Below are positions 19,828-45,164 of a stretch of 45,321 nt of DNA, piece by piece. Under the pieces are notes generated by a model. It worked only from the letters and a program-made list of their open reading frames with translations. It did not search any database and was not told the origin of the DNA. The stretch is taken from the NCBI GenBank assembly GCA_031259945.1, contig JAIRKU010000002.1:1-45321 (forward strand). Reading direction: 5' to 3'. Positions within the stretch are counted from its first letter, which is position 1. Every line of letters begins with the position of its first letter. Origin of the DNA: Mycoplasmataceae bacterium. Its GTDB lineage: Bacteria > Bacillota_I > Bacilli_A > Mycoplasmatales > Mycoplasmoidaceae. The translations under genes were made by a program, and so were the position numbers.

Positions 19828-20010
19828 TTGACATTTCTATTATTTTATGATATAAACTAACCATTAATTTAAAGGGATTAAGAGAGAGAACAGCGATGCT
19901 GTTTCTGTGCTTTTATTTTTAAATGTTTCCTAAGCAAGGATTTAGCGCTAGCTGGTCTTTGCTTTTTATTTGATATTTAGTTTACAAAAACTACTCAACA
20001 AGGAGATATT
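19828..20010 (+). promoter_or_regulatory. Surface-gene 5' leader, copy 1: promoter, GA tract, hairpin, terminator-like hairpin
   Basis: A near-consensus promoter is visible: TTGACA (19828-19833), 17-nt spacer, extended -10 TGaTATAAA (19848-19856). The leader then contains (GA)4 (19882-19889), the hairpin acagc-gat-gctgt, an A/T-rich linker, and a 9-bp stem (19932-19940 with 19956-19964, one G-U pair) followed by T5. After this terminator-like structure comes an aaggag ribosome binding site 7 nt before the ATG at 20011. The same order and similar sequence recur at 27874-28030 and, on the minus strand, at 45007-45164. A weak dyad (TAAACTAA near TTAATTTA) overlaps the transcription start. Confidence 0.75.
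19932..19967 (+). terminator. Terminator-like hairpin within leader copy 1
   Basis: Stem aagcaagga/tctttgctt with one G-U pair, a loop of about 15 nt, and T5 immediately after. It lies between promoter and start codon, so it would act as an attenuator. Confidence 0.65.
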
Positions 20011-21456
20011 ATGAAAAAAATAATTAAACAACAAAAACGTATTAAAAGTGTGCTATCTGCAATTGGAGTAATCGGATTAGTAGGTGCGGCCATTGGCGCT
20101 ACGACTACAGTTATCTCATCTAACCGTAACAATGAGATGACGCAATTAAATTCATTGAATCGCACTACCAATATTAAAGATGATTCTCTAATAGGAGACA
20201 GCCCTTCATTCATTATGGATATTCAACCAAGTTCAATCACAATTGGCTTACCTCAGCTTGACTATGATGAACAATGCGGAGAAATTGGTTGTTTATATAC
20301 AACTCATCATTCTTTTTCAATTAATTTAAATGCAACTAAATTAATGACCAGCTTTTCTGTTTTAGACGACACTCTTTTAAATACATTTATCAAAATTCAT
20401 GGTATTACGATAAATAATAATAAGTATGTAGACATGAATTCTGTTTTAAATACTGGCGGTTTAGTTAGGGATTTTAAAGCTGCAATATTAAATGGCGATA
20501 ACCAATTTGGTGATTTTTGTATAGATGACCATATGACATGGCCTAAGCATTGGGTACCAAATCCATATAAACCAGATAGTGGCAGTGGATGATGAATCCC
20601 TGCTGGTAGTGACGATAAACACTTTGCAGCATCAACAACCACTGGCGTAGAACTGACATCTATTCGAAAATATAGATTTTCATTTGATTGGCATTCTACT
20701 GAAGACCTATCTGATCCAAATAGCATGAAGTTAGCAATTATGGATCTCTTTGGATTGGACAAATATATTTACATTTGTCGAGACGCCTCTGCGCATTGCT
20801 ATAACATAGGTTTATATGATGTTAATGGTAATTTAGATCACCTTAACAGTATGTTAGCTTACGATTTTGATGCAAATTATTTTTACAATGGATCGCCGCA
20901 ATTACACGGTAGTTATACATTAGATTGAAAAACAACCATTATCAAAAATTATAGTCTGAGTTCATCTGATTACAAAGCACCATATGCTAAGAACTTTGGC
21001 ATAGTATGTATGAATTACAACCAAGATATTTATAAGCAACGTTATTCACAAACTTTTTATACATCTATTAAGGATTTGGGATTAATGAATATAGACAACA
21101 AAAACTTTGTTGATGTTACACAACAAGCACAAATTAACCAAGTATTTAATGGTAATCAATTGTATTTAGTTGTTAATGCGCAACATGACAACTACGATAT
21201 TTCATACAATGGAATAGAAAGACTTGGTGATTACAGAAAACCTGAAGTTTCTTTTTCATTAGTTAAAGATGATGATGGCAACATTACCGGATTTGATGTA
21301 AATATAGATGGTTGACAAAAAACTGGAGGCGGCATTGATCCGGTAATGGGGCCATGAACTGAGACTATAACAGAACAATATGTTACTTTAGGATTGCAAG
21401 ATCGTTTAACCAAGCAAAACTATGGCAATATTGGAACAGTTACCTTTTACGAATAA
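20011..21456 (+). CDS. Exported/surface protein, function unknown
   Basis: This 481-aa protein starts after a strong aaggag ribosome binding site. It has a basic N-terminus and one hydrophobic segment (about residues 13-36) with no lipobox Cys, so it is either secreted or anchored by an uncleaved signal. The rest is polar, rich in Asp, Asn and Tyr, with several Trp encoded by both TGG and TGA; no domain is recognised. Cys residues occur in the exported part (CGEIGC near residue 89), unusual for mycoplasma surface proteins. Its last 27 bp recur upstream of the second locus. The following gene starts 25 nt downstream with its own aggag. Confidence 0.85.
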
Positions 21457-21481
21457 GAATATGTACTAGGAGAAAACAAAT

Positions 21482-24400
21482 ATGAAAATCAATCAAATAA
21501 AAACAAAAACAAAACTTTTAATAGCAACTAGCGCCATTCTTGCTGCATCTGGTGCTATTGCTACACCATTAATATATATACATTCAGCAATTGCGAAACC
21601 AAAAACAAGCGATATAGTCTTATCTCTTACTAATGATGATTTAAGTTTTTATAAAAATCAATTGTTATCTAAATATGATGCCCAATTAAACTATGATAAC
21701 AGTCAATTTGATACCAACATTGATGTTAATAAAGAAGTAGGTATCATGCTGAATGATATGAACACTTTTACGCCACAAAATTCTAAAGATTCAACCCCGG
21801 CCCTAAATAATGTTCAATGATATCAACATTATACTGATGTTGCTAATGCTTTAGGGGTAAGCGTGGCGGATACAAATATTTACAAATATGATCGTGGCGG
21901 AGTATTATCAAATTCTGCCAATTCCTATGCGCAATTAGATTCTAAACTTAGAAATAACAAATCAATTGATGATTATAAAAAAGCAGTAATTACTGCACTT
22001 AATTTAGCTAATGATTCCCTAATGGATAACGATGAATTAAATACAGCTCTTGTTTTAGCAGAAACAAATGCTAATTTATATTTATCATATGACTATGACT
22101 CTGAACTTATTAGTAATGCTTTGAACATCTTAATAAATGCTATTAAAACTAAAAACTTAGAACAAAATTCTGATTTAACTGTTCAAGCAGCATTCTTAAA
22201 AAATGTAATTAATTATTCAGAAACAGGTTCATTAAAAACCGGCGATGAAATTCCTACAGAGTTTATAGGCAAATTATGTTCTTACAATTACAACCGTTGT
22301 TATGGTGCCCCTCTTGATGAATATAGAGAAGATATAAGTGATGTTACAGCAACTACTGGCACACATTCAGCTGAGGCTAATAATTTAATCAAATTAAATT
22401 TTGTTGGCTACAACGGTGATGGTAGTACATTTGGCATGGCTGAAATTTTGCCAGGCTACACTGCTCATTTGAAAATCGATTCCATGGATCAAGATACTGA
22501 TTCACATACATGTAAATTGATATTAGTACCTGGAATCTCTAAAACAGGAAGTTCAAATGTAACATGAGCTTCTACGACAGAAGAAGGAAGAGAAACTCCT
22601 ACTATTGAATTTAACTTGTCTACGAATTTTGATGAAATTAAATATATTAGTCAAAATACTTGATACAACGATATTACACCTATTAAATTAAATGCTTCTG
22701 ACTATGATGCTTCTACTAGTTTGTATTTTAGTTCAACAGCTGCTCTTAGAACAAAAATCGATGATATTATGAAAGACTGTGAAATTGATCCAGTTACTAA
22801 AAGATATGTTCTAGATGACCCAGAATATCCATGTTTAATGACAGGACAAGCACTTGCCGGTATTACTTCACCCGGGGCAACTAATAGTAAATTACATACA
22901 AATCAATTTTATGCTATGCAAGTAACCGATATCGATTATGAAGATGGTTGATTACAGGCGCATTGAGTTATTGCTGATAATGTTTCACCGCATGCAAAAA
23001 TCGTACAAGATATTAAATGAGAAGATGAAAACGGAAATATTCTTAGCAACGTTTTCATAAAATACAATGCCGATGTTGAAACCCAACACGAAATTAACTA
23101 TGTTAAAACCTTGCTTAAAACTTGCGCATCAGTTGGTACGGTTTATAAAGTGTACCAAAGTATGTCGCAAGATTCTGTTTACAAAATAGATGAAAAATTT
23201 CAATGAGATCAATATACGAACGGAGTTATGTTGGCAGCCACAATAATTGGTACAGGGTTAGCTTTAGCTGATGCAATTTTCTGTGGAATTCCGGGTGCCG
23301 GGGTCATAGCTTGAGTTAAATTTCTTTTAGAGGTTGCTTTTAATGCGGCAATGATTGGTGTTAGTATTTGACAAATAGTTACTATGACTCAAGAAGGTAA
23401 TGATTACTCAAATTTTGTTAGTAATTATCATGAGATGACAGATGATTCATCACAAAAATTAACATCAGAGATTAAAACATTTAATGACAGCATTGATTCA
23501 AAAGATGTAATAAATGTAACCGATTCTTTAATGAATATTGCTGATAGAAAAAAAAGTGCTGAAACAATTATTACTACATACAATAATTCGGACCTTTTTA
23601 AAGACCAAGATACATGGAAAAAAGCAATTAATTATTTAAATAGTGATGATAAAGCACATGACGATGAATTGTATGTACAATTTACGACACCTTGAAATAA
23701 ATTAAAAACTTCAGCATCTCAACAAGATGTAGCTTTTGATGTATGAGCAGTTGCCGATAATTTTCTATATTACGGTATGTCTGTTTGAAGTAAAACTTAT
23801 TTAGCGGCATTAGGTGATAGAACAGCCGCTGCCGTTACTAAATCATTGAACGATGCTAATGGGTATGTGACTAATATTAAAGCTGGAACGACAACCGTCA
23901 GTCAATTAACGGCTACAGATAATGAGTTCGTGTCAATGATAGACGATTTTGTAAACAAATATGATTGTGATCCAGGTGTAGTAACGAGCTTCTTCGATAG
24001 CATTCAAGATTGCACAAATAGTAAAACTGCTCTTAGTATGGCTACATCAGTATTAAATGACAAATGTCCTTCTTTCATGCATAACAACCAAAGATATTTT
24101 ATGAATTTAGAAAATGGCACAATTAAAGTTACTGACGATGTTGGTAAAGCCAAAGATATGAAAACTTTATTTACTCACGATATCTCAGGAAACATATTAT
24201 GAAATACTGATAGAGGAATTGATGCTAGCGTACTCAATCACGATTGGTCACAGGTAAATATAGAAATATTTGAGCACAATTTTTTCAAACCTGTTAATGT
24301 TCCAGCTCAACAAGCTGTTGGGAGAACCACTCCATTTATTACTGAAATAGTAGAGGGTGACAACGCACGCGCTAACAACAATGGTCGTACTATAGATATT

Positions 24401-24694
24401 AAATATAAAGATAGCCAAGTAGATTCTTATATAGATAACACTACCGCAACAAACAATATGGATAGAGATACTGCTACCTATGCAAATAAATTAAGCGTTG
24501 CTGAAAATGCAGAAACAGATTTTGATAATGCTGTTAATGCTTATAAAAATGGTGAAAAGGCTAAAGACGCTCTTAAAAAAGTAGGTAGATCTCCGATTGC
24601 TAAAATGTTAGGATACATAGGAATTGTTCTTGGTGTAATTAGTACGGTTGCAACGATTGCGCAAATAATTGCGGACATGATAATTAATCCATAG
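21482..24694 (+). CDS. Large surface protein with hydrophobic hairpin and C-terminal anchor
   Basis: This 1070-aa protein is reconstructed through about 16 TGA Trp codons. It has a signal-type hydrophobic segment at the N-terminus (about residues 10-38, no lipobox), a long hydrophobic region in the middle (about 578-630: two stretches around GIPGAGVIAWVKFLLEV), and a Gly/Ile-rich transmembrane segment at the very C-terminus (about 1043-1068). Long Asp/Asn/Ser-rich helical segments lie between, with Cys pairs. This layout (exported body, central hydrophobic hairpin, C-terminal anchor) suggests a membrane-interacting surface protein, perhaps adhesin- or pore-like, but there is no family match that I recognise. 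Preceded by aggag. Confidence 0.85.
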
Positions 24695-24707
24695 GCACAA
24701 AGGCAAG

Positions 24708-26873
24708 ATGTTAAAGCTAAAGCTTTTATTTACATTAGGCGCTGGAGCGGTACTAGTTGCTACGGAAACATCTAATATTATTAATAACGTTAACACATCT
24801 TTTACAACACATGTTAACAAAATAGATGACATGTTTGACAACTTAAGCGTCACTAGTAAATTTAATAATAACGATCAAACATATAAGTTATCTCCATCTG
24901 TAGTTGGAGGGACGTATAAGTTTATAAAGTCAACTGGTAATTTATCTATTTCTAGAGACGGTACGATTACTTTGCCAAAAGAAACTTTCGCTACCAATGA
25001 ATATATTTTAAATTTTTCTTATACAACAAAACAATCTTCTGATAATTATTCTTTTTCTTGGTTTCTAGATAATAGTGAAGTTCCTGATGTCACTAATTTA
25101 ACAAACACTACGTTTTATGATGGCAAAATTCAAACGTTTAATGGCCTAACCCCAACCATTGCCGGAGGAGAATATACTAGAGTTTCTGCTGATTCGGGTA
25201 TTGACATTGCACTAGATGGAACGGTTACACTAGATGCTACTGCATTACCGCAAGACTATAATCTTAAATTTACTTATAAAGTTAGTTGGTACGAACCAAT
25301 AGAAAAAGATTTTGTGTGACATTTAGAAACTGGTGCGGCACCCGATGTTACCAATTTAACAAACACTACATTTTATGATGGTAAGGCGCAAACATTTAAT
25401 GGTTTAACCCCAACTATTACCGGAGGGAAATATACTAGAGCCTCTGCTGACGCTGGTATTGATATTGCATCCGATGGAACGATTACACTTGATGCTACTG
25501 CAAAACCTAAAGACTACAATCTCAGTTTCACTTATATAGTAAGTGGCTATCAACAAGTGACAAAAGATTTTGTGTGACATTTAGAAACTGGTGTGGCACC
25601 TGATGTTACCAATTTAACAAACACTACGTTTTATGATGGTAAGGTGCAAACATTTAATGGCTTGAAACCAACAATAGCTGGTGGCATATATACCAGGGTT
25701 TCTGCTGACGCTGGTATTGATATTGTATCCGATGGAACAATCAGTCTTGCTTCTACAGCGAAACCAAAAGATTACAATCTTAAATTTACATATACAGTTG
25801 ATGGATATGCTCCGGCGCAAAAAGATTTCGTATGGCATCTAAAAGTGGAAATGGATGGGGTTTTGCTTAAAACAAATGGAACAAAAATTACTTTTAATTC
25901 TTCAAATACACCGATGTCTAATTTCTGCAGTCAGATTGGTGATTTTGTAATTAATAGCCAGAATATTTCAAGGAAAGATATTAAAAATATAAGTTTTGGT
26001 AATTCCTATTTAGCAATCACAGAAGTTGATAACGATTGATTATGATATTGTAGTTCGTTAATATCGATTGACTTTAATGGACTAACAAATTTATTGTCCG
26101 TTGGAGACAATTGATTGTATGGTTGTACTTCGTTAACATCTGTTGACTTTTCTCCATTATCAAATTTAGTTTCCGTTGGTAACGATTGATTAAGCGTTTG
26201 CTCTGCCATAACATCTGTTAATTTTTCTAAATTATCTAAATTAAAATCAGTTGGTAACGATTGATTATTGCAATGTTCGCAGTTGGAAACTATTGATTTT
26301 GGAAAATTAACAAAACTTTCATCTATTGGAAACAATTGATTAGCCGCTTGTAGTTCGTTGACGTCAATTAATTTTAATGGATTAGCTAATCTAACATCAG
26401 TTGGTAACAATTGATTGATTAGTTGTAGTTCATTAATATCGATTGACTTTAATGGATTAACCAATCTAACTTCGGTAGGGGACAGCTGATTGTATGATTG
26501 CAGTAAAATTACAACAATCAATTTTAATGGATTAACAAATCTGTCATCAATTAGTTACGAATGATTACACGGTTGTATTTCACTAACATCAATTGATTTT
26601 AGCGAATTAATAAACCTATCTTCAGTGGGGGACAATTGACTATATGGCTGCACAAATATTCAAACAATTTCAGTAGGTAATATTTCATGAATTGAACGCA
26701 AATTTATTGATTGACATTGAGTTGGTTTTTCAACTACAAATTTCGCTTTAAAATGCCCCAAAAACGGAACTATAAAAGCATCATCTAACGATAACGGTCA
26801 AAAATGAATAAAGGCAGTAGAAGAACAAAAACAAAAAGGAGAAACATGAAACTGAAACGTGGTTTTATCGTAA
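24708..26873 (+). CDS. Repeat surface protein: three 86-aa repeats plus eight LRRs
   Basis: This 721-aa protein has a short hydrophobic N-terminus (MLKLKLLFTLGAGAVLVA) and a divergent copy of the repeat domain. Three tandem 86-residue beta-rich units follow (PDVTNLTNTTFYDGK...KDFVWHL, residues about 126-383) that look Ig-like. Next come a connecting domain (TKITFNSSNTPMSNFCSQIG) and eight 25-residue BspA-type leucine-rich repeats (LTSVDFSPLSNLVSVGNDWL, about 451-650). Every LRR holds a TGA-coded Trp. The true stop is TAA 26871-26873, so the end overlaps the following lipoprotein gene by 28 bp. BspA-type LRR proteins are often adhesins. Repeat number likely varies by recombination with the locus at 28164. 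The start follows the previous stop by 13 nt. Confidence 0.9.
25083..25856 (+). repeat. Tandem array of three 258-bp units
   Basis: Units begin at 25083, 25341 and 25599, exactly 258 bp apart with no indels, each encoding 86 residues. They are interspersed in sequence with the eight units at 28539-30602. Confidence 0.95.
26058..26657 (+). repeat. Eight 75-bp LRR units
   Basis: Eight consecutive 25-codon repeats encode L-S-DF-GL-NL-SVG-WL-CS. The Trp is encoded by TGA in each unit. The spacing of 75 bp was measured between cgtta landmarks at 26056 and 26131. Confidence 0.9.
26838..26841 (+). promoter_or_regulatory. Ribosome binding site fixing the lipoprotein start
   Basis: The sequence aaaaggag just upstream places translation at the ATG 26846, not at an earlier in-frame ATG at 26804 that has no such site. 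It lies inside the coding end of the preceding gene. Confidence 0.6.
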
Positions 26874-27760
26874 GTTTAAAATTTAGAAAACCACTGTTTG
26901 TTTTTTTGATTAGTATTACAATTTTTTCATTTACAGGATGTGCTAATAGCGAAATAAAAGACACTCCATCGTTGATAACAAAAATTGATGGTACTACGAT
27001 TCAGTTTTATTCAATAGACACATCAATATCAACCTTTTGTTCAAAAAGAGAAACTGTTATTATCAATGGCGTTTCTATTCTTAAAAGTGATATCAAATCT
27101 ATTATTTTTTCTAACACATACTCAAACATAACTAATATTGGGAATTATTGATTAAACGGTTTTTCATCATTAACATCAATTGATTTTCAAGGGATGAGTA
27201 ATGTAGTGTCTATCGGTGATAATTTTTTGAATAATTCTTTTGCCATCGGCACACATTTAAACTTTAATGGTTTGAGTAAAGTGGAAACAATTGGTTTATC
27301 TTTTTTACATAATTGTAATTTCCATTCTGTAGATTTCAGCGGTTTAACTTCTTTACAATTTATTGCACCAGAAAGCGAAAATGCTATTTTCTTATCCTAT
27401 TGCGACTATTTGTCAACAATTGATTTTTATGGATTTAAATTAACTGAAATACCAAATAGTACATGCTTAAATTTTAGTTCAAGCGAAGAATTGCCAGATT
27501 CTGTCGGATGTCAGGTTGTTGATATCAGTAAATTATCTTTAGCAAAGATAGGGTCATCTTTTTGTGAAAAAGCCCCACATTTATCAAAATTTATTGTTGG
27601 CGATTATTCCTTTTCTAGCGAACTAATGCCTGACACTACATATTGTTTTGATACCATACCATCAATAGGTGAAATAGTCGCAAATACAGAAGATATTGCT
27701 AAAACTTGAATAGATAACATTCCTTCATTTAAAGGATGAAAATTTACGCCACAAGAATAA
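26846..27760 (+). CDS. LRR lipoprotein
   Basis: This 304-aa lipoprotein has a signal peptide ending in FSFTGC (Cys32). The mature part starts with a segment homologous to the domain preceding the LRRs in the upstream protein (LITKIDGTTIQF..., ILKSDIKSIIFSNTYSNIT). A few irregular BspA-like leucine-rich repeats follow (SLTSIDFQGMSNVVSIGDNFL, KVETIGLSFLHNC, SVDFSGLTSL), then a unique C-terminus ending in WKFTPQE. Its reading frame overlaps the preceding gene by 28 bp. The gene at 31577 encodes a paralogue of the same length. Probably surface-exposed and lipid-anchored; partner of the repeat protein is inference from the conserved gene pair. Confidence 0.92.
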
Positions 27761-27873: not shown

Positions 27874-28163
27874 TGGACATTTTCATTATTTTATGATATA
27901 AACTAAGCGTTAGTTTAAAGGACGAGAGAGAAACAGCAACGTTGTTTTGTATTTTTGATTTTTAAACTATTTTCAAAGCAAGGATTTGACGTTAGCTGAT
28001 CCTTGCTTTTTAATATTTAGTTGAGAGATTTTAACCCAGTAAATGGAATGCTGATTAGTAAATCTGAATTTGTCACGCTTTATGTTGTGTTTAATAAAGT
28101 TGTGCAAACATTGGAACAGTTACCTTTTACGAATAACAAAATATAGAGGAGAAAAAAACAAAT
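27874..28163 (+). promoter_or_regulatory. Surface-gene 5' leader, copy 2, plus remnant of a deleted gene
   Basis: The promoter is TGGACA (27874-27879), 17-nt spacer, TATAAA (27897-27902). A perfect dyad, taaactaa-gcg-ttagttta, overlaps the likely transcription start. (GA)4 is followed by a caacgttg-centred hairpin and the terminator-like stem at 27976-28008. After about 28020 the sequence departs from copy 1. A 27-bp stretch (28110-28136) identical to the last 27 bp of the gene ending at 21456 is followed by a similar aggag ribosome binding site. This indicates that a homologue of the first gene of locus 1 was deleted here, leaving its 3' tip. Confidence 0.75.
27976..28011 (+). terminator. 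Terminator-like hairpin within leader copy 2
   Basis: A perfect 10-bp stem aagcaaggat/atccttgctt with a 13-nt loop, ending in a short T run. It lies about 150 nt before the start codon of the repeat protein. Confidence 0.7.
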
Positions 28164-31100
28164 ATGAAATTAAAAATCTTACTTCTACTATCAGGAATAG
28201 GATCTACAGTGTTTGGTGCAACTGTGCCCATTATTGTTGACAACAATGAAAATATTATGTTGCAAAACAACAACATGATAAATGATATGTTTGATGATTT
28301 GAATACTACTAGTGAATTTGACGGGAATGACCAAACATTTCAATTATTGCCATACATACAAGGAGGAATATATAAATTAATTAATTCGACTGGTAATTTA
28401 TCTATTTCAAAAGATGGTGTGGTTACTTTACCAGGGGCGACTTCAGATTATGGTGAATACATTTTAAATTTTTCTTATATTACAAAATCATTATCTGCCG
28501 ATTATTCTTTTTCTTGAATTTTAAAAACAGACTGAATACCTGATGTTGTCAATCTAACAAACACTACGTTTTATGATGGCAAAATTCAAACATTTAATGG
28601 TTTAACCCCAACTATTACCGGAGGGGAATATACCAGGGTTTCTGCTGATCCGGGTATTGACATTGCACTAGATGGAACGATTACACTTGATGCTACTGCA
28701 TTACCCAAAGACTACAATCTTAAGTTCACTTACACAGTGGACGGATATACTCCGGTACAAAAAGATTTCGTATGACATCTCAATAACGGCAATGCTCCTG
28801 ATGTCACTAATTTAACCAATACAACAAGTTATGATGGTAAGACACAAACATTTAGCGGTTTAAACCCAACAATAGCTGGCGGCATATATACCAAGGTTTC
28901 TGCTGACCCAGAGATTAGCGTCGCATCCGATGGAACAATCAGTCTTGTTTCTACAGCGAAACCAAAAGACTACAATCTTAAGTTCACTTACAAAGTAGAT
29001 GGATATGAACTAGCACAAAAAGACTTCGTATGACATCTCAATAACGGTAATGCCCCCGATGTCACTAATTTAACAAACACTACGTTTTATGATGGCAAAA
29101 TTCAAACATTTAATGGTTTAACCCCAACAATAGCTGGCGGGACATATATTACCGACTATGCAAATGTTGGCATTAGTATTGCAACAAATGGAATAATTAC
29201 GCTAGATGCTACTGCACAACCGAGAGACTATAACATTAGTTTCACTTACTCAGTGAGCGGATATCAATCAGTACAAAAGAACTTCGTATGACATTTGGAT
29301 GCTGGCGTAGCCCCTGATGTTACTAATTTAACAAAAACAACGAGTTATAACGGCAAAACTCAAACGTTTGACGGTTTAGTACCTTCCATTAAAGGAGGCA
29401 TATATGTGCGAACATCAGGCGACGTTGGGATTAACATCACATCCGACGGAACGATTACACTTGATGCTACTGCATTGCCAAAAGATTACAATCTTAAGTT
29501 CACTTACAAAGTAGATGGATATGAACTAGCGCAAAAAGATTTCGTATGACATCTCAATAACGGCAATGCTCCTGATGTCACTAATTTAACAAGCACTACG
29601 TTTTATGATGGTAAGGCACAAACATTTAATGGTTTAACTCCAACAATAGCTGGCGGCATATATACCAAGGTTTCGGCTGACTCAGAGATTAGCATCGCAT
29701 CCGATGGAAAAATCAGTCTTGCTTCTACAGCGAAACCAAAAGACTACAATCTTAAGTTCACTTACACAGTGGACGGATATACTCCGGCACAAAAAGATTT
29801 CGTATGACATCTCAATAACGGCAATGCTCCCGATGTAACCAATTTAGCCAATACAACTACCTATACTGGTAAGGTCCAAACATTTAATGGTTTAAAGCCA
29901 ACCATTGACGGAGGCACATATACGCGAACTTCTGGCGACACTGATATTAGCATCGCATCTAACGGAATAATTACTCTTGCCTCTACTGCAAAACCAAATA
30001 GCTACAATCTTAAGTTCACTTATACAGTGACTGGATACACTCCAGTACAAAAAGATTTCACATGATATTTAAATAATGCTATCGCTCCCGATGTCACTAA
30101 TCTAACTAACACATCAAAGTATAACGGTAAAGCTCAAACATTTAATGGTTTAACACCTACCATACTTGGCGGTGTATACGGTAGAATTTCGGCAGATGCT
30201 GGTATCGATATCGCATCCGATGGTACAATTACTCTTGCGCCTACTGCATTACCAAAAAAATATGAAATTCATTTTTTCTATTTGGTAGATAATTGTGCAT
30301 CTGTGGAAAAAGATTTCGTATGAAATCTCAATAACGGCAATGCCCCCGATGTCACAAATCTAGATAATACAACAGATTACAACGCTCAAACCCAAACATT
30401 TAATAGTCTAACCCCAACTATTACCGGAGGGGAATATACCAGGGTTTCTGCTGACCCAGAGATTAGTATTGCATCCGATGGAACAATTACACTTGCAGCA
30501 ACCGCACAACCCAAAGACTATAACCTTAAATTTACTTATAAAGTAGATGGATATGAACCGGTACAAAAGAATTTCGTATGACATTTAAAACCTACTAACA
30601 TTGATGGGACTTTACTTACAACTGATGGAACAAAAATTACTTTTAATTCTTCCAATACACCAATGTCTAATTTCTGTAGTCAGATTGGTGATTTTGTAAT
30701 CAATGGGCAAAGTATTTCTAGAACAAAAATTGTTAGTGTAAGCTTTGGCAAAACCTATTCAGAAATTACAAAAGTTGATGACAATTGGTTTTGAGGTTGT
30801 AGCTCATTAACGTCAATCAATTTTAGTGGATTAGCTAATCTAGCATCAGTTGGTAATTATTGACTATACAAATGTAAATCTTTAACATCTGTTGACTTTT
30901 CTCCATTATCAAATTTAGTTTCAGTTGGTAATGAATGATTAAATGGGTGTTCTACAATTACTTCTGTTAACTTTTCTAAATTATCTAAGCTTGAATCCGT
31001 GGGTGACGATTGATTAATATCATGTTCGATGCTTCAATCGGTAACATTTAAAGATTTAGTAAATCTATCATCTGTCAAAAATAATTGATTGGCTGATTGT

Positions 31101-31601
31101 ACTTCATTAACATCAATTGACTTTAATGGGTTAACTAAATTAACGACAGTTGGTGATAACTGATTGCTTAATTGTACTTCATTAACATCAGTTGATTTTA
31201 GTGCCATAACCAATCTAACGTCGGTTCGCAATTCTTGATTGTATGGTTGCATTGGATTAACATCAATAAACTTTGGTGCATTAACTAATTTATCAACCAT
31301 TGGCTATGAATGGTTATCTGGTTGTACTTCACTAACATCAATTGATTTTAGTAAACTAATAAATCTATCATCGATTGGTGATAACTGATTAAGCGGTTGC
31401 ACTTCGCTTAATTCTATTTCAGTTGGTAATATTTCATGAATTCCACGGAAAATGGTTGAATTTGTTTGAGTTGGTTTTTCTGATACTAATTTTGCTTCAA
31501 ATTGTTCTAATAGTGGGGATTTGGTATGCTCATCAACCGATATCGGTAATGGCTGAAAAAATGGGGGGACACTTAAATGAAATATAGTTACTCCAGAGTA
31601 A
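28164..31601 (+). CDS. Repeat surface protein: eight 86-aa repeats plus eight LRRs
   Basis: This 1145-aa paralogue of the protein at 24708 has the same plan. The signal-type N-terminus is MKLKILLLLSGIGSTVFGA, followed by a divergent first repeat domain. Eight tandem 86-residue beta-rich units follow (about residues 126-813), then the shared connecting domain (TDGTKITFNSSNTPMSNFCSQ) and eight 25-residue BspA-type LRRs (about 882-1081). More than 20 TGA codons encode Trp, mostly at the FVWHL end of each unit and in each LRR. The stop is TAA 31599-31601, overlapping the next lipoprotein start by 25 bp. Preceded by agaggag. Probably surface-exposed and size-variable. Confidence 0.92.
28539..30602 (+). 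repeat. Tandem array of eight 258-bp units
   Basis: Units start at 28539, 28797, 29055, 29313, 29571, 29829, 30087 and 30345. Every interval is exactly 258 bp. Neighbouring units differ by mosaic patches such as NNGNAPDVTNLTNTT versus DAGVAPDVTNLTKTT. Confidence 0.95.
30807..31406 (+). repeat. Eight 75-bp LRR units in the second repeat protein
   Basis: Eight 25-codon BspA-type leucine-rich repeats, the same number as in the paralogue at 26058-26657. Each has a Trp, encoded by TGA, in the WL position. Confidence 0.9.
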
Positions 31602-32491
31602 AATCAATATTCTGAAAATTATCATTTGTATTTTTAACTGGAGGTACTACTTTTTTATCTGCAGGGTGCAGTAACGAAGTAAAAGATATTCCATCGCTGA
31701 TAACAAAAATTAATGGAATAAAAATTGCTTTTAATTCTTCCAATACACCAATTTCCAATTTTTGTTCTCCAGCTAATGACCAAAACGTTATCATTGATGG
31801 CGCTTCTATTCTTAAAAGTGATATCAAATCCATTATTTTTTCTAATACATATTCAAAAGTAACGAATATCGAGAAAAATTGATTAAATGGTTTTTCATCA
31901 TTAACATCAATTGATTTTCAGGGAATGAGTAATGTAGTTTCTATTGGTAATAACTTTCTAGATACTTCGTTTAATGTTAATACACAATTGAACTTTGATG
32001 GTTTGAGTAAAGTAGAAACTATTGGTTTATCTTTTTTACATAATTGTAATTTCAATTCGGTAGATTTTAGTGGTTTAACTTCTCTACAATCTATTGCACC
32101 AAAAAGCAATAACGCTAATTTCATATCATATTGTGACTATTGATCAACAATTGACTTTAATGGGCTTAAGTTAAGTGAAATACCTAATAGTGCATGTTTA
32201 GTTTTTAGTTCAAGTGAAGGATCGCCAGATTATGTTGGGTGTCAAATAGTCGACATTAGTAAATTAACTTTAACAAAGATAGGGTCATCTTTTTGTGAGT
32301 CTGCACCTAATTTATCAAAATTTATAGTTGGTGATTATTCCTTTTCTAATGAACTAATGCCTGACACTACAGATTGTTTTGATACCATACCATCAATAGG
32401 TGAAATAGTCGCAAACACAGAAAATATTGCTAAAACTTGAATAGATAACATCCCTTCATTTAAAGGTTGAAAATTTACACCACAAGAATAA
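31577..32491 (+). CDS. LRR lipoprotein, paralogue of the one at 26846
   Basis: This 304-aa lipoprotein has the lipobox FLSAGC (Cys31). From about residue 40 on it is closely similar to the 26846 product, including ILKSDIKSIIFSNTYS, MSNVVSIGNNFL, and the final KGWKFTPQE, while the signal peptides differ strongly. The start is the ATG at 31577, inside the last codons of the upstream repeat gene; ggggggac upstream is a poor ribosome binding site, so translation may depend on coupling. Two TGA Trp codons are in the leucine-rich part. Probably lipid-anchored at the surface. Confidence 0.92.
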
Positions 32492-38117: not shown

Positions 38118-38130
38118 TTGAAAATTTTAA

Positions 38131-38206
38131 ACAGGGGTACTAATCTTAAGATTAGTTGAGAAACACCCTTAAACCTGATCAAGTTAAAACTTGCGGAGGG
38201 AGTTCA
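38131..38206 (+). ncRNA. TPP riboswitch (THI element) aptamer
   Basis: The conserved blocks are in order: GGGGT...GTTGAGA (38134-38161), ACACCC (38164-38169), the core ACCTGATC (38173-38180) and TGCGGAGGGA (38192-38201). TPP binding normally lowers expression of thiamine uptake or synthesis genes. The expression platform is the adjacent terminator. The gene downstream is a thiamine transporter component, matching the ligand. Confidence 0.93.
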
Positions 38207-38218
38207 ACATTTTGAATA

Positions 38219-44145: not shown

Positions 44146-45006
44146 TTATTGGTTTATTGGTAATCTTATGTTGTCAAACCCTATGATAGGTACATTGGAT
44201 CATGATTTTTTGTAAGAAGAAAAATCAAGTGAAACCTCTGAATTATAAGAAAAGATAAAATCCAAATAAAATGATGTGTCAACTGTACTATTAGTAATCT
44301 TTACATTATTACCTTTTCAAATTTCCTTATCTTCGTCATCGTTTGCCACATAATAAGCTTTCGTTATAGATGTTGCAAAGGTGCTTTTAGTATGAAGAAT
44401 AATTTCTAAAACACTATTTGGCATGATTTCAATATTACCAAATCAACATTTTTCGACAAAATTGAAAGATAAGAATAAATATATATCGAATTCATTGGGA
44501 TTAGTCATTCTAATGAATTCAACATTTAAAGCATTTGTTCAATCAGTATGCACTGCTTCTTTTATTGTCATTGTAGGATCAGCGTCTGTTGTTTTAGAAA
44601 GTAATGGCTTGTCCAATAAATGCTTACAATAATCAACTATTGAATCTAGTAAATTAATTGGCTTGTAATTATTTTTAAAAAAATTTATTATTCGTTGATC
44701 ATCCGGATTTAAATTACTAAAATCTTCATTTTTATGATTGGATTGAAATTGTCAATTTTCTATTTCATTTACTGAATAATGTTTGTCAATGATATCGTTT
44801 GTGTAGGTATGTCAAATACCATAACCCACTCCTATACCACCACCAACGCCAATAATAACAGCACTAGTAGCGATTAATACTTTTATTTTCTTCCTACGGT
44901 TTCATATCTTATGTTGCTTAGCTGTTAAAACGTTATTATGTGAATTAGAAAATTCACCATTTTGTTTTCTAAATTTGATTGCTTCTGTTTGACTCTTTGT
45001 TTTCAT
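44146..45006 (-). CDS. Exported surface protein, third leader-controlled gene
   Basis: This 286-aa protein is visible with TGA as Trp (seven codons). A basic, hydrophilic N-terminus of about 40 residues (ending RRKKIK) precedes one hydrophobic Gly/Val-rich segment (about 43-64) without lipobox, so the protein is anchored by an uncleaved signal with the C-terminal ~220 residues outside. The exported part has NEIENWQFQSNHKNEDFSN and beta-rich segments and is not recognised. It shares a 5' leader, not sequence, with the surface genes at 20011 and 28164. The aggag ribosome binding site lies 7 nt before the ATG. The stop is 22 nt from the lepA stop (convergent). Confidence 0.75.
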
Positions 45007-45164
45007 ATTTTATCTCCTATTGATTAGTAACAACAAAAAAAACAAGAACTAGCAAATGCTAAATTCTTGCTTTTAAGAAAAGCTAAAGCGTCAAGAGCAA
45101 CTAAGTTGCTCTCTCTCTCTCTCTCTCTTGTGTTGATCATGTTAAAATTAATGTAATACTTATA
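45007..45164 (-). promoter_or_regulatory. Surface-gene 5' leader, copy 3, with (GA)10 tract
   Basis: On the minus strand: candidate -10 TATAAG (45159-45164), (GA)10 (45109-45128), hairpin gagcaac-tta-gttgctc, a T-rich linker and a terminator-like hairpin (45035-45071: caagaa...ttcttg with an inner tagca/tgcta stem and a run of eight T). An aggag ribosome binding site and ATG follow. Order, spacing and the motif aagcaag-atttagc match copies 1 and 2, but the GA tract has ten units instead of four. Confidence 0.75.
45035..45071 (-). terminator. Terminator-like hairpin within leader copy 3
   Basis: Outer stem caagaa/ttcttg, inner stem tagca/tgcta, then T8 on the minus strand. It is upstream of the coding region, so it is read as an attenuator. 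Confidence 0.65.

Follow-up and report, generated by a model that had tools for sequence, protein, structure and literature searches.

The surface-protein genes at three loci of a mollicute contig are preceded by leaders of the same build, and the question raised by these loci is what kind of control such a leader exerts. The window analyzed here, i.e. the whole stretch of 45,321 nucleotides, is contig C21 of an 848-kb mollicute assembly, which is 88% complete and is read with genetic code 4. The nearest cultured names to the source genome are Ureaplasma and Mycoplasma amphoriforme. A first-pass annotation of the window had described one ordered leader at positions 19828 (+), 27874 (+) and 45164 (−). 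The order of promoter, GA tract, short hairpin, A/T-rich linker and a stem followed by 5–8 T, ending at about 19967, 28011 and 45035, was indeed found at all three loci, but the leaders are not of one uniform type: those at 19828 and 27874 belong to a subfamily A, and that at 45164 is a member of the large subfamily B, in which (GA)n has n = 6–20. The coordinates of all features are compiled in Table 1.

Distribution and structure of the leader family

The three loci do not form the complete set. A covariance model was built from 16 leaders and applied to the genome itself with a cut-off of E < 1e-5, which gave 20 leader copies, the true number possibly being slightly below 20 because copies split by contig ends may count twice. 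Overall, about 90 leaders were detected by covariance models in 7 of the 36 species of the genus. The leader-bearing relatives are G019, G023, G024, G027 and G033, with G006 added by a broader model. Among the other genomes of the family and order searched, the covariance model gave a partial match for G109, a weak match for G090 and no leader elsewhere. The proposal that surface-protein genes share a cis-acting attenuator, for which such a search had been suggested as a check, was thereby strengthened by further copies both in the genome and in its relatives.

A pattern composed of GA tract and terminator arm yielded many further copies in the own genome, while the reversed pattern yielded none. 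Also, GAGAGAGA occurs eight times in the window against an expectation of 0.34, a count reached by no shuffle. A search of 298 genomes of the order for the strict pattern TATAAT, 4–8 nt, ATG, 8–14 nt, G8 gave matches in 4, every one of them from this genus; the reversed control was almost empty. No leaders were found near lepA in named relatives. Judged by its sequence, the leader family is real, undescribed in the literature searched, and belongs to one genus of uncultured mollicutes.

In the own genome, the contigs C1, C5, C6, C12, C20, C22, C23, C24, C25 and C27 end in or near a B leader. Since so many contigs end there, the leaders break the assembly, and at these places neither the number of copies nor the order of the genes around them is certain. 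An Rfam scan of the window returned only four tRNAs and a TPP riboswitch (RF00059, 64.7 bits) at 38123–38218 (+), without a family match at the leaders, in line with the annotation, which had seen neither a T-box nor a known riboswitch in them. The TPP riboswitch adjoins tRNA-His and is noteworthy in a reduced mollicute genome.

Hairpin 1, linker, terminator and the ribosome binding site (RBS) of the gene follow each other in the same order in leaders with GA and with poly-G tracts. The folds of the leaders in the window are more stable than those of dinucleotide shuffles, with z values of −1.96 (19828), −2.57 (27874) and −3.51 (45164). Among 92 aligned leaders, standard pairs occupy 91.8% of the pair cells of both helices, and two-sided changes were found at 22 of 25 pairs, which are the compensatory stem changes that the annotation had named as a further check. 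Two-sided changes occur in 376 cells, whereas shuffles gave 121 and slid controls no more than 62. Fitting the alignment to the structure favours such changes, but the margin over the controls is large. Both hairpins are supported by covariation.

With regard to the downstream genes, 71 proteins were long enough to judge; a lipobox is present in 33 of them, and a further 31 carry a membrane anchor (64/71). The earlier statement that the products share little or no sequence applies to the ectodomains, while many of the proteins share one of a few recurring N-terminal membrane-anchor modules (MKxKNQTExLKFRKEDG... and MKKIKLIKSLIGIGxxxxIGLG...SC) and differ in the remainder. A-type leaders precede long genes, several of them with leucine-rich repeats. 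The two stretches 20011–27760 and 28164–32491 are neighbouring groups of long surface genes with related members of the BspA-type leucine-rich repeat kind, each behind an A-type leader, and probably arose by duplication. Between terminator and gene, the leaders at 27874 (28090–28163 of the window) and at C23:37153 share a conserved stretch, aacattg.aacaattac..ttta.gaataacaaaatata.agg, which may represent another promoter or an additional regulatory element.

Table 1. Features of the B-type leader at 45164 (−) and of the two A-type leaders in the window, with the genes behind them.
Feature	Positions	Strand	Basis	Remarks
B type: −10 box TATAAG	45159..45164	−	sequence	18-nt gap to ATG, the commonest in GA-class leaders
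B type: upstream ORF (predicted leader peptide)	45024..45140	−		ATG 45140–45138, reads through the GA tract; stop 45026–45024
B type: (GA)9G simple sequence repeat, within the upstream ORF	45109..45127	−	sequence	n = 6–20 in other copies
B type: hairpin 1, loop TTA	45093..45113	−	fold and covariation	TAG in CTTAG is the early stop of one frame
B type: intrinsic terminator	45035..45074	−	fold, covariation	stem AAAAGCAAGAATTTAGC / GCTAGTTCTTGTTTT and T8 run
B type: downstream gene	44146..45006	−	sequence	286-aa membrane-anchored protein (MKTKSQTEAIKFRKQNGEFSN...); RBS AGGAGA
A type: promoter	19828..19856	+	sequence	TTGACA 19828–19833, 17 nt, TATAAA 19851–19856
A type: (GA)4 tract	19882..19889	+	sequence	no ATG/GTG opens into the tract
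A type: hairpin 1	19885..19906	+	fold	core ACAGC gat GCTGT
A type: terminator hairpin and T-run	19932..19968	+	fold, covariance-model match	
A type: second leader	27874..28012	+		promoter, (GA)4 27924–27931, hairpin 1 about 27930–27948, terminator to 28012
Genes after the 19828 leader	20011..27760	+		481, 1070, 721 and 318 aa; last two with leucine-rich repeats; first membrane-anchored
Genes after the 27874 leader	28164..32491	+		1145 aa with leucine-rich repeats; 304 aa

Upstream reading frame and repeat tract

In G027, G023 and G024, poly-G of 7–12 takes the place of the (GA)n tract, as it does in one leader of the own genome (C4:13040). An ATG lies at most 25 nt before the repeat in 76 of 82 leaders, whereas the mean of 1000 shuffles was 22.8 (maximum 35) and a neighbouring upstream window used as control had an ATG in 17. 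The distance from ATG to repeat ranges from 4 to 25 nt and is mostly 12–13 nt for GA and 13 nt for poly-G. No stop codon interrupts the frame of this ATG before the repeat in 76 of 77 leaders; the corresponding numbers for the other two frames are 64 and 46. The ATG excess also persists after clustering of the leaders at 60–90% identity.

In the poly-G class, 35 of 37 leaders have 5–7 nt between the −10 box and the ATG, which would make the upstream ORF leaderless. For GA leaders this spacing is mostly 18–22 nt, and the ATG is thus more than part of a start-site motif. No clear Shine-Dalgarno sequence was found before the upstream ORFs. For M. pneumoniae, 16% leaderless-like starts and only 8.1% starts with a Shine-Dalgarno motif were described (PMC10568206); starts that are leaderless-like or lack a Shine-Dalgarno sequence are ordinary in mycoplasmas.

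A second covariance model begins only at the last repeat units and extends as far as the terminator. As it is thereby blind to the start codon, its new matches served as a held-out test of the ATG rule derived from the first leaders. It delivered 38 new matches, 36 of them with a repeat, and in 33 of these 36 an in-frame ATG or GTG lies at most 22 nt upstream; one of the three remaining leaders has an ATG slightly further upstream.

All 15 (GA)6+ tracts of the own genome belong to leaders, one of which is cut by a contig end, and all five such tracts in G023 are leaders as well. About 40 other poly-G tracts were sampled in G000 and G023, and nearly all of them are located in or near ordinary ORFs. 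The combination of ATG, repeat and terminator as a general property of poly-G tracts was rejected, since only L255 among these roughly 40 fits, and L255 is itself a further leader. Many of the tracts in the series L219–L257 (G000, G023) are poly-G of 8–10 within coding regions, often early in lipoprotein-like genes, and represent ordinary coding contingency loci. In other genera (G286, G114, G052 and G182), (GA)n directly follows an ATG with a promoter or a Shine-Dalgarno-like sequence upstream; these tracts look like ordinary coding repeats. All repeat lengths come from metagenome assemblies, one per species, and are possibly inexact; the variation seen is that between paralogous copies.

Besides the poly-G of the upstream ORF, leaders of G027 such as L053, L060, L062, L112 and L114 carry a poly-C just upstream of the −10 box, possibly a second repeat that acts on the promoter. 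Mollicute lipoprotein gene families with repeat tracts near the promoter, together with this poly-C, would fit a repeat that acts on transcription initiation, as proposed for the GAA promoter repeats of Mycoplasma gallisepticum vlhA. In both leader classes, however, the repeat lies about 20–45 nt downstream of the −10 box, within the transcript, and an action on initiation would leave the start codon as well as the terminator unexplained, so that we regard it as scarcely credible.

For the analysis of the three reading frames, an early-stop frame was defined as one with a stop more than 10 nt before the terminator. In 82 of 83 leaders, one or more early-stop frames are combined with one or more frames whose stop lies immediately in front of the terminator, within it or beyond it, compared with about 60 for shuffled linkers. 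Leaders without any early frame number 0 against 18.4 expected from shuffled linkers, and leaders with all three frames early number 1 against 4.1 expected (83 leaders each). In 55 of 83 leaders the hairpin-1 loop shares nucleotides with a stop codon. The leaders are kin by descent, and raw counts therefore overstate the independent evidence, a point that is addressed by identity clustering: at 90, 80, 70 and 60% identity, the two-state property is present in 66/67, 51/52, 35/35 and 23/23 clusters, respectively, and no shuffle equals this.

These frames also bear on the idea that the leader is mainly a stretch for homologous recombination, which shuffles surface genes behind active promoters as in vsa and vlhA, the repeat being incidental. 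Near-identical B leaders at many loci and the frequent contig breaks at them would be expected from such a stretch, but every copy keeps its own promoter, RBS and terminator, and copies from other species have diverged in sequence and yet keep structure and frames, neither of which is needed for recombination. We consider this explanation decidedly improbable.

Proposed control of the terminator by the upstream frame

Taken from sequence comparison, it is quite likely that the leaders are phase-variable, translation-coupled transcription attenuators. Transcription would start from the −10 box, and a ribosome would begin the short upstream ORF at the conserved ATG before (GA)n or poly-G. Since neither GA nor G units are multiples of three, each slippage event shifts the frame in which the repeat is left. 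In one frame, often in two, the ribosome would soon meet a TAG or TAA, often in the loop of hairpin 1, and depart, so that the terminator could form (OFF). In a frame that stops directly before, inside or past the terminator, it would cover or unwind the 5′ arm and the polymerase would enter the surface gene (ON). We infer translation of the upstream ORF, termination, a change of repeat length in the population and the control of expression from the sequence. A ribosome-dependent antitermination is plausible in these organisms, as a mollicute expressome is documented in M. pneumoniae, where the ribosome is coupled to the polymerase through NusA (PMC8116511).

The leader at 45164 (−), a canonical B-type copy, illustrates the three frames. 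With (GA)9 its upstream ORF would encode MINTRERERESNLVALDALAFLKSKNLAFASSCFFCCY (genetic code 4) and has its stop past the terminator, i.e. in the through frame, which is the predicted ON frame; the TAA of the second frame directly precedes the 5′ arm of the terminator. Among own-genome copies with a 13-nt spacer, the stop lies in hairpin 1 at n = 7 and 10 and 4 nt ahead of the terminator at n = 11 and 17, and copies with n = 9 and 15 read beyond the terminator. OFF is the predicted state of 58 of 81 leaders, more than would be expected from frames drawn uniformly with a single OFF frame. Some early stops are located only 12–16 nt before the terminator, where the OFF assignment is uncertain. 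Fusion of a shifted frame to the surface gene was rejected, as no frame in 77 leaders reaches the gene ATG in frame (0/77).

In some frames the stop of the upstream ORF lies within tens of nucleotides of the gene start, so that reinitiation or unmasking of the RBS, with a hairpin that is not a terminator, might come into play. Such translational control is in our view very improbable: a T-run of at least 4 directly follows the stem in all 86 repeat-bearing leaders (86/86), with a mean of −16.9 kcal/mol for the region, which is the mark of an intrinsic terminator, and the RBS of the gene lies outside the hairpin.

The annotation had suggested a common control step that co-regulates the genes through protein, antisense, temperature or ligand. 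As the GA tract lies inside an upstream ORF and is substituted by poly-G in many copies, the evidence points to frame-dependent, ribosome-mediated antitermination rather than to a sensor of any of these kinds. Co-regulation is contradicted by the tract lengths, which differ from copy to copy, and therefore each gene should switch independently. In the form of an attenuator in which GA tract and hairpin 1 bind a regulatory RNA or protein that decides on terminator formation at all genes together, a sensor would account for the conservation of structure and order before many genes, for the A-type leaders, which have no recognisable upstream ORF, and for hairpin 1, which has no obvious alternative pairing with the terminator. 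It is difficult to reconcile with two chemically unlike tracts, (GA)n and poly-G, in the same slot, with the hypervariable repeat length and with the lack of an Rfam match at the leaders, and it leaves start codon and frame architecture unexplained. An antiterminator GCUUUU/AAAAGC in the linker of B leaders, the best candidate assessed in a non-exhaustive search of pairings, was rejected because its pairs do not covary and 4 of 15 sequences disrupt it. Altogether, we consider such a sensing attenuator improbable.

For translation-coupled attenuation, hairpin 1 has a possible role as a pause site or as the holder of the early stop codon. The A-type leaders take a special position. Subfamily A consists of the close relatives 19828, 27874 and C23:37153, occurs in this species only and has a fixed (GA)4 in all three copies (3/3). 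Both hairpins are kept and the tract length does not vary among the three copies, and a scan for ATG and GTG recognised no start codon opening into the repeat in any of them. As a candidate for an A-type upstream ORF, the ATG in the loop at 19882 was discarded, as it is not kept at 27924. We take 19828 and 27874 as a diverged or locked branch; since they have no recognisable start codon, the mechanism rests on leaders of the 45164 type.

A wider reading, to which we would give an even chance, is that of a genome-scale system for antigen variation in host-associated mollicutes, of an origin independent of Streptococcus, with about 20–30 surface genes per genome, each with its own frame-shifting leader. 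Hairpin 1 would then be a separate module, e.g. a site at which the polymerase pauses and is brought into step with the ribosome, so that a timely arrival at the terminator would be limited to ribosomes in the correct frame. If this is right, phase-variable attenuation would be the main regulatory scheme of the surface repertoire in tiny genomes with few transcription factors, and its principle would be used with two different repeats in several species. The ON/OFF code would be readable from DNA alone and testable on metagenome reads. The approximately 90 attenuators would also provide a natural library for the ribosome–terminator distance needed to block the terminator.

Comparison with known systems

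In the trp and pyrBI attenuators of E. coli, whether the terminator forms depends on where the ribosome stands on a leader ORF, and trp has a hairpin upstream of the terminator. The leaders described here likewise have a hairpin in this position. Unlike in trp and pyrBI, there is no evident sensing of amino acids or nucleotides and no supported antiterminator, and the input would be the repeat length. Conventional coding contingency loci, which also exist in these genomes, resemble the leaders in that a slippage-prone tract shifts a reading frame; there, however, the frame of the protein itself is shifted, whereas no leader frame is fused to the gene. In M. gallisepticum vlhA, the GAA repeats precede the start site by about 40 nt, and initiation is regarded as the step on which they act (PMC6258824). 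Both systems concern surface lipoprotein genes of mollicutes, with repeat length as the switch in vlhA and as the predicted switch in the leaders, but the vlhA repeats are in-frame trinucleotides upstream of the promoter, while those of the leaders are non-triplet and lie downstream of the −10 box.

Phase variation combined with ribosome-mediated attenuation has one described case in the literature searched, the two pilus operons pil1 and pil3 of the streptococcus S. gallolyticus. The pil1 leader ORF contains GCAGA repeats; frames with a stop 39–49 nt upstream of the terminator lead to termination, and expression follows when the stop lies inside the terminator or 4 nt in front of it. The predicted effects were obtained with chloramphenicol, with ATG loss and with terminator loss, the first two showing that leader translation raises the level of full-length transcript (PMC3894217, Danne et al. 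2014). As in the pil1/pil3 operons, a leader ORF with a non-triplet repeat is followed by an intrinsic terminator and a surface structure would be controlled, and the frames split, as in pil1, into those with stops well upstream and those with stops at or in the terminator, which in our case is read from the DNA. These pil1-type sequence features are shared by the B-type and the poly-G leaders, whereas the A-type leaders lack the start codon. The first-pass annotation's suggestion of a previously undescribed class is consequently correct for the sequence family; the working principle was already described in 2014 for pil1 (PMC3894217).

Several differences to pil1/pil3 are evident. Instead of two operons with a 5-nt repeat, there are about 20–30 copies per genome in the richest of the seven species, with 2-nt and 1-nt repeats. 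The streptococcal ORFs have a Shine-Dalgarno start, a feature missing from the starts described here, those of the poly-G class being predicted to be leaderless. The mollicute leaders are further set apart by the reading of TGA as Trp and by an additional conserved hairpin, whose loop often contains a stop codon. A sequence relation to pil1/pil3 was neither found nor expected, and the leaders of the two groups are probably convergent.
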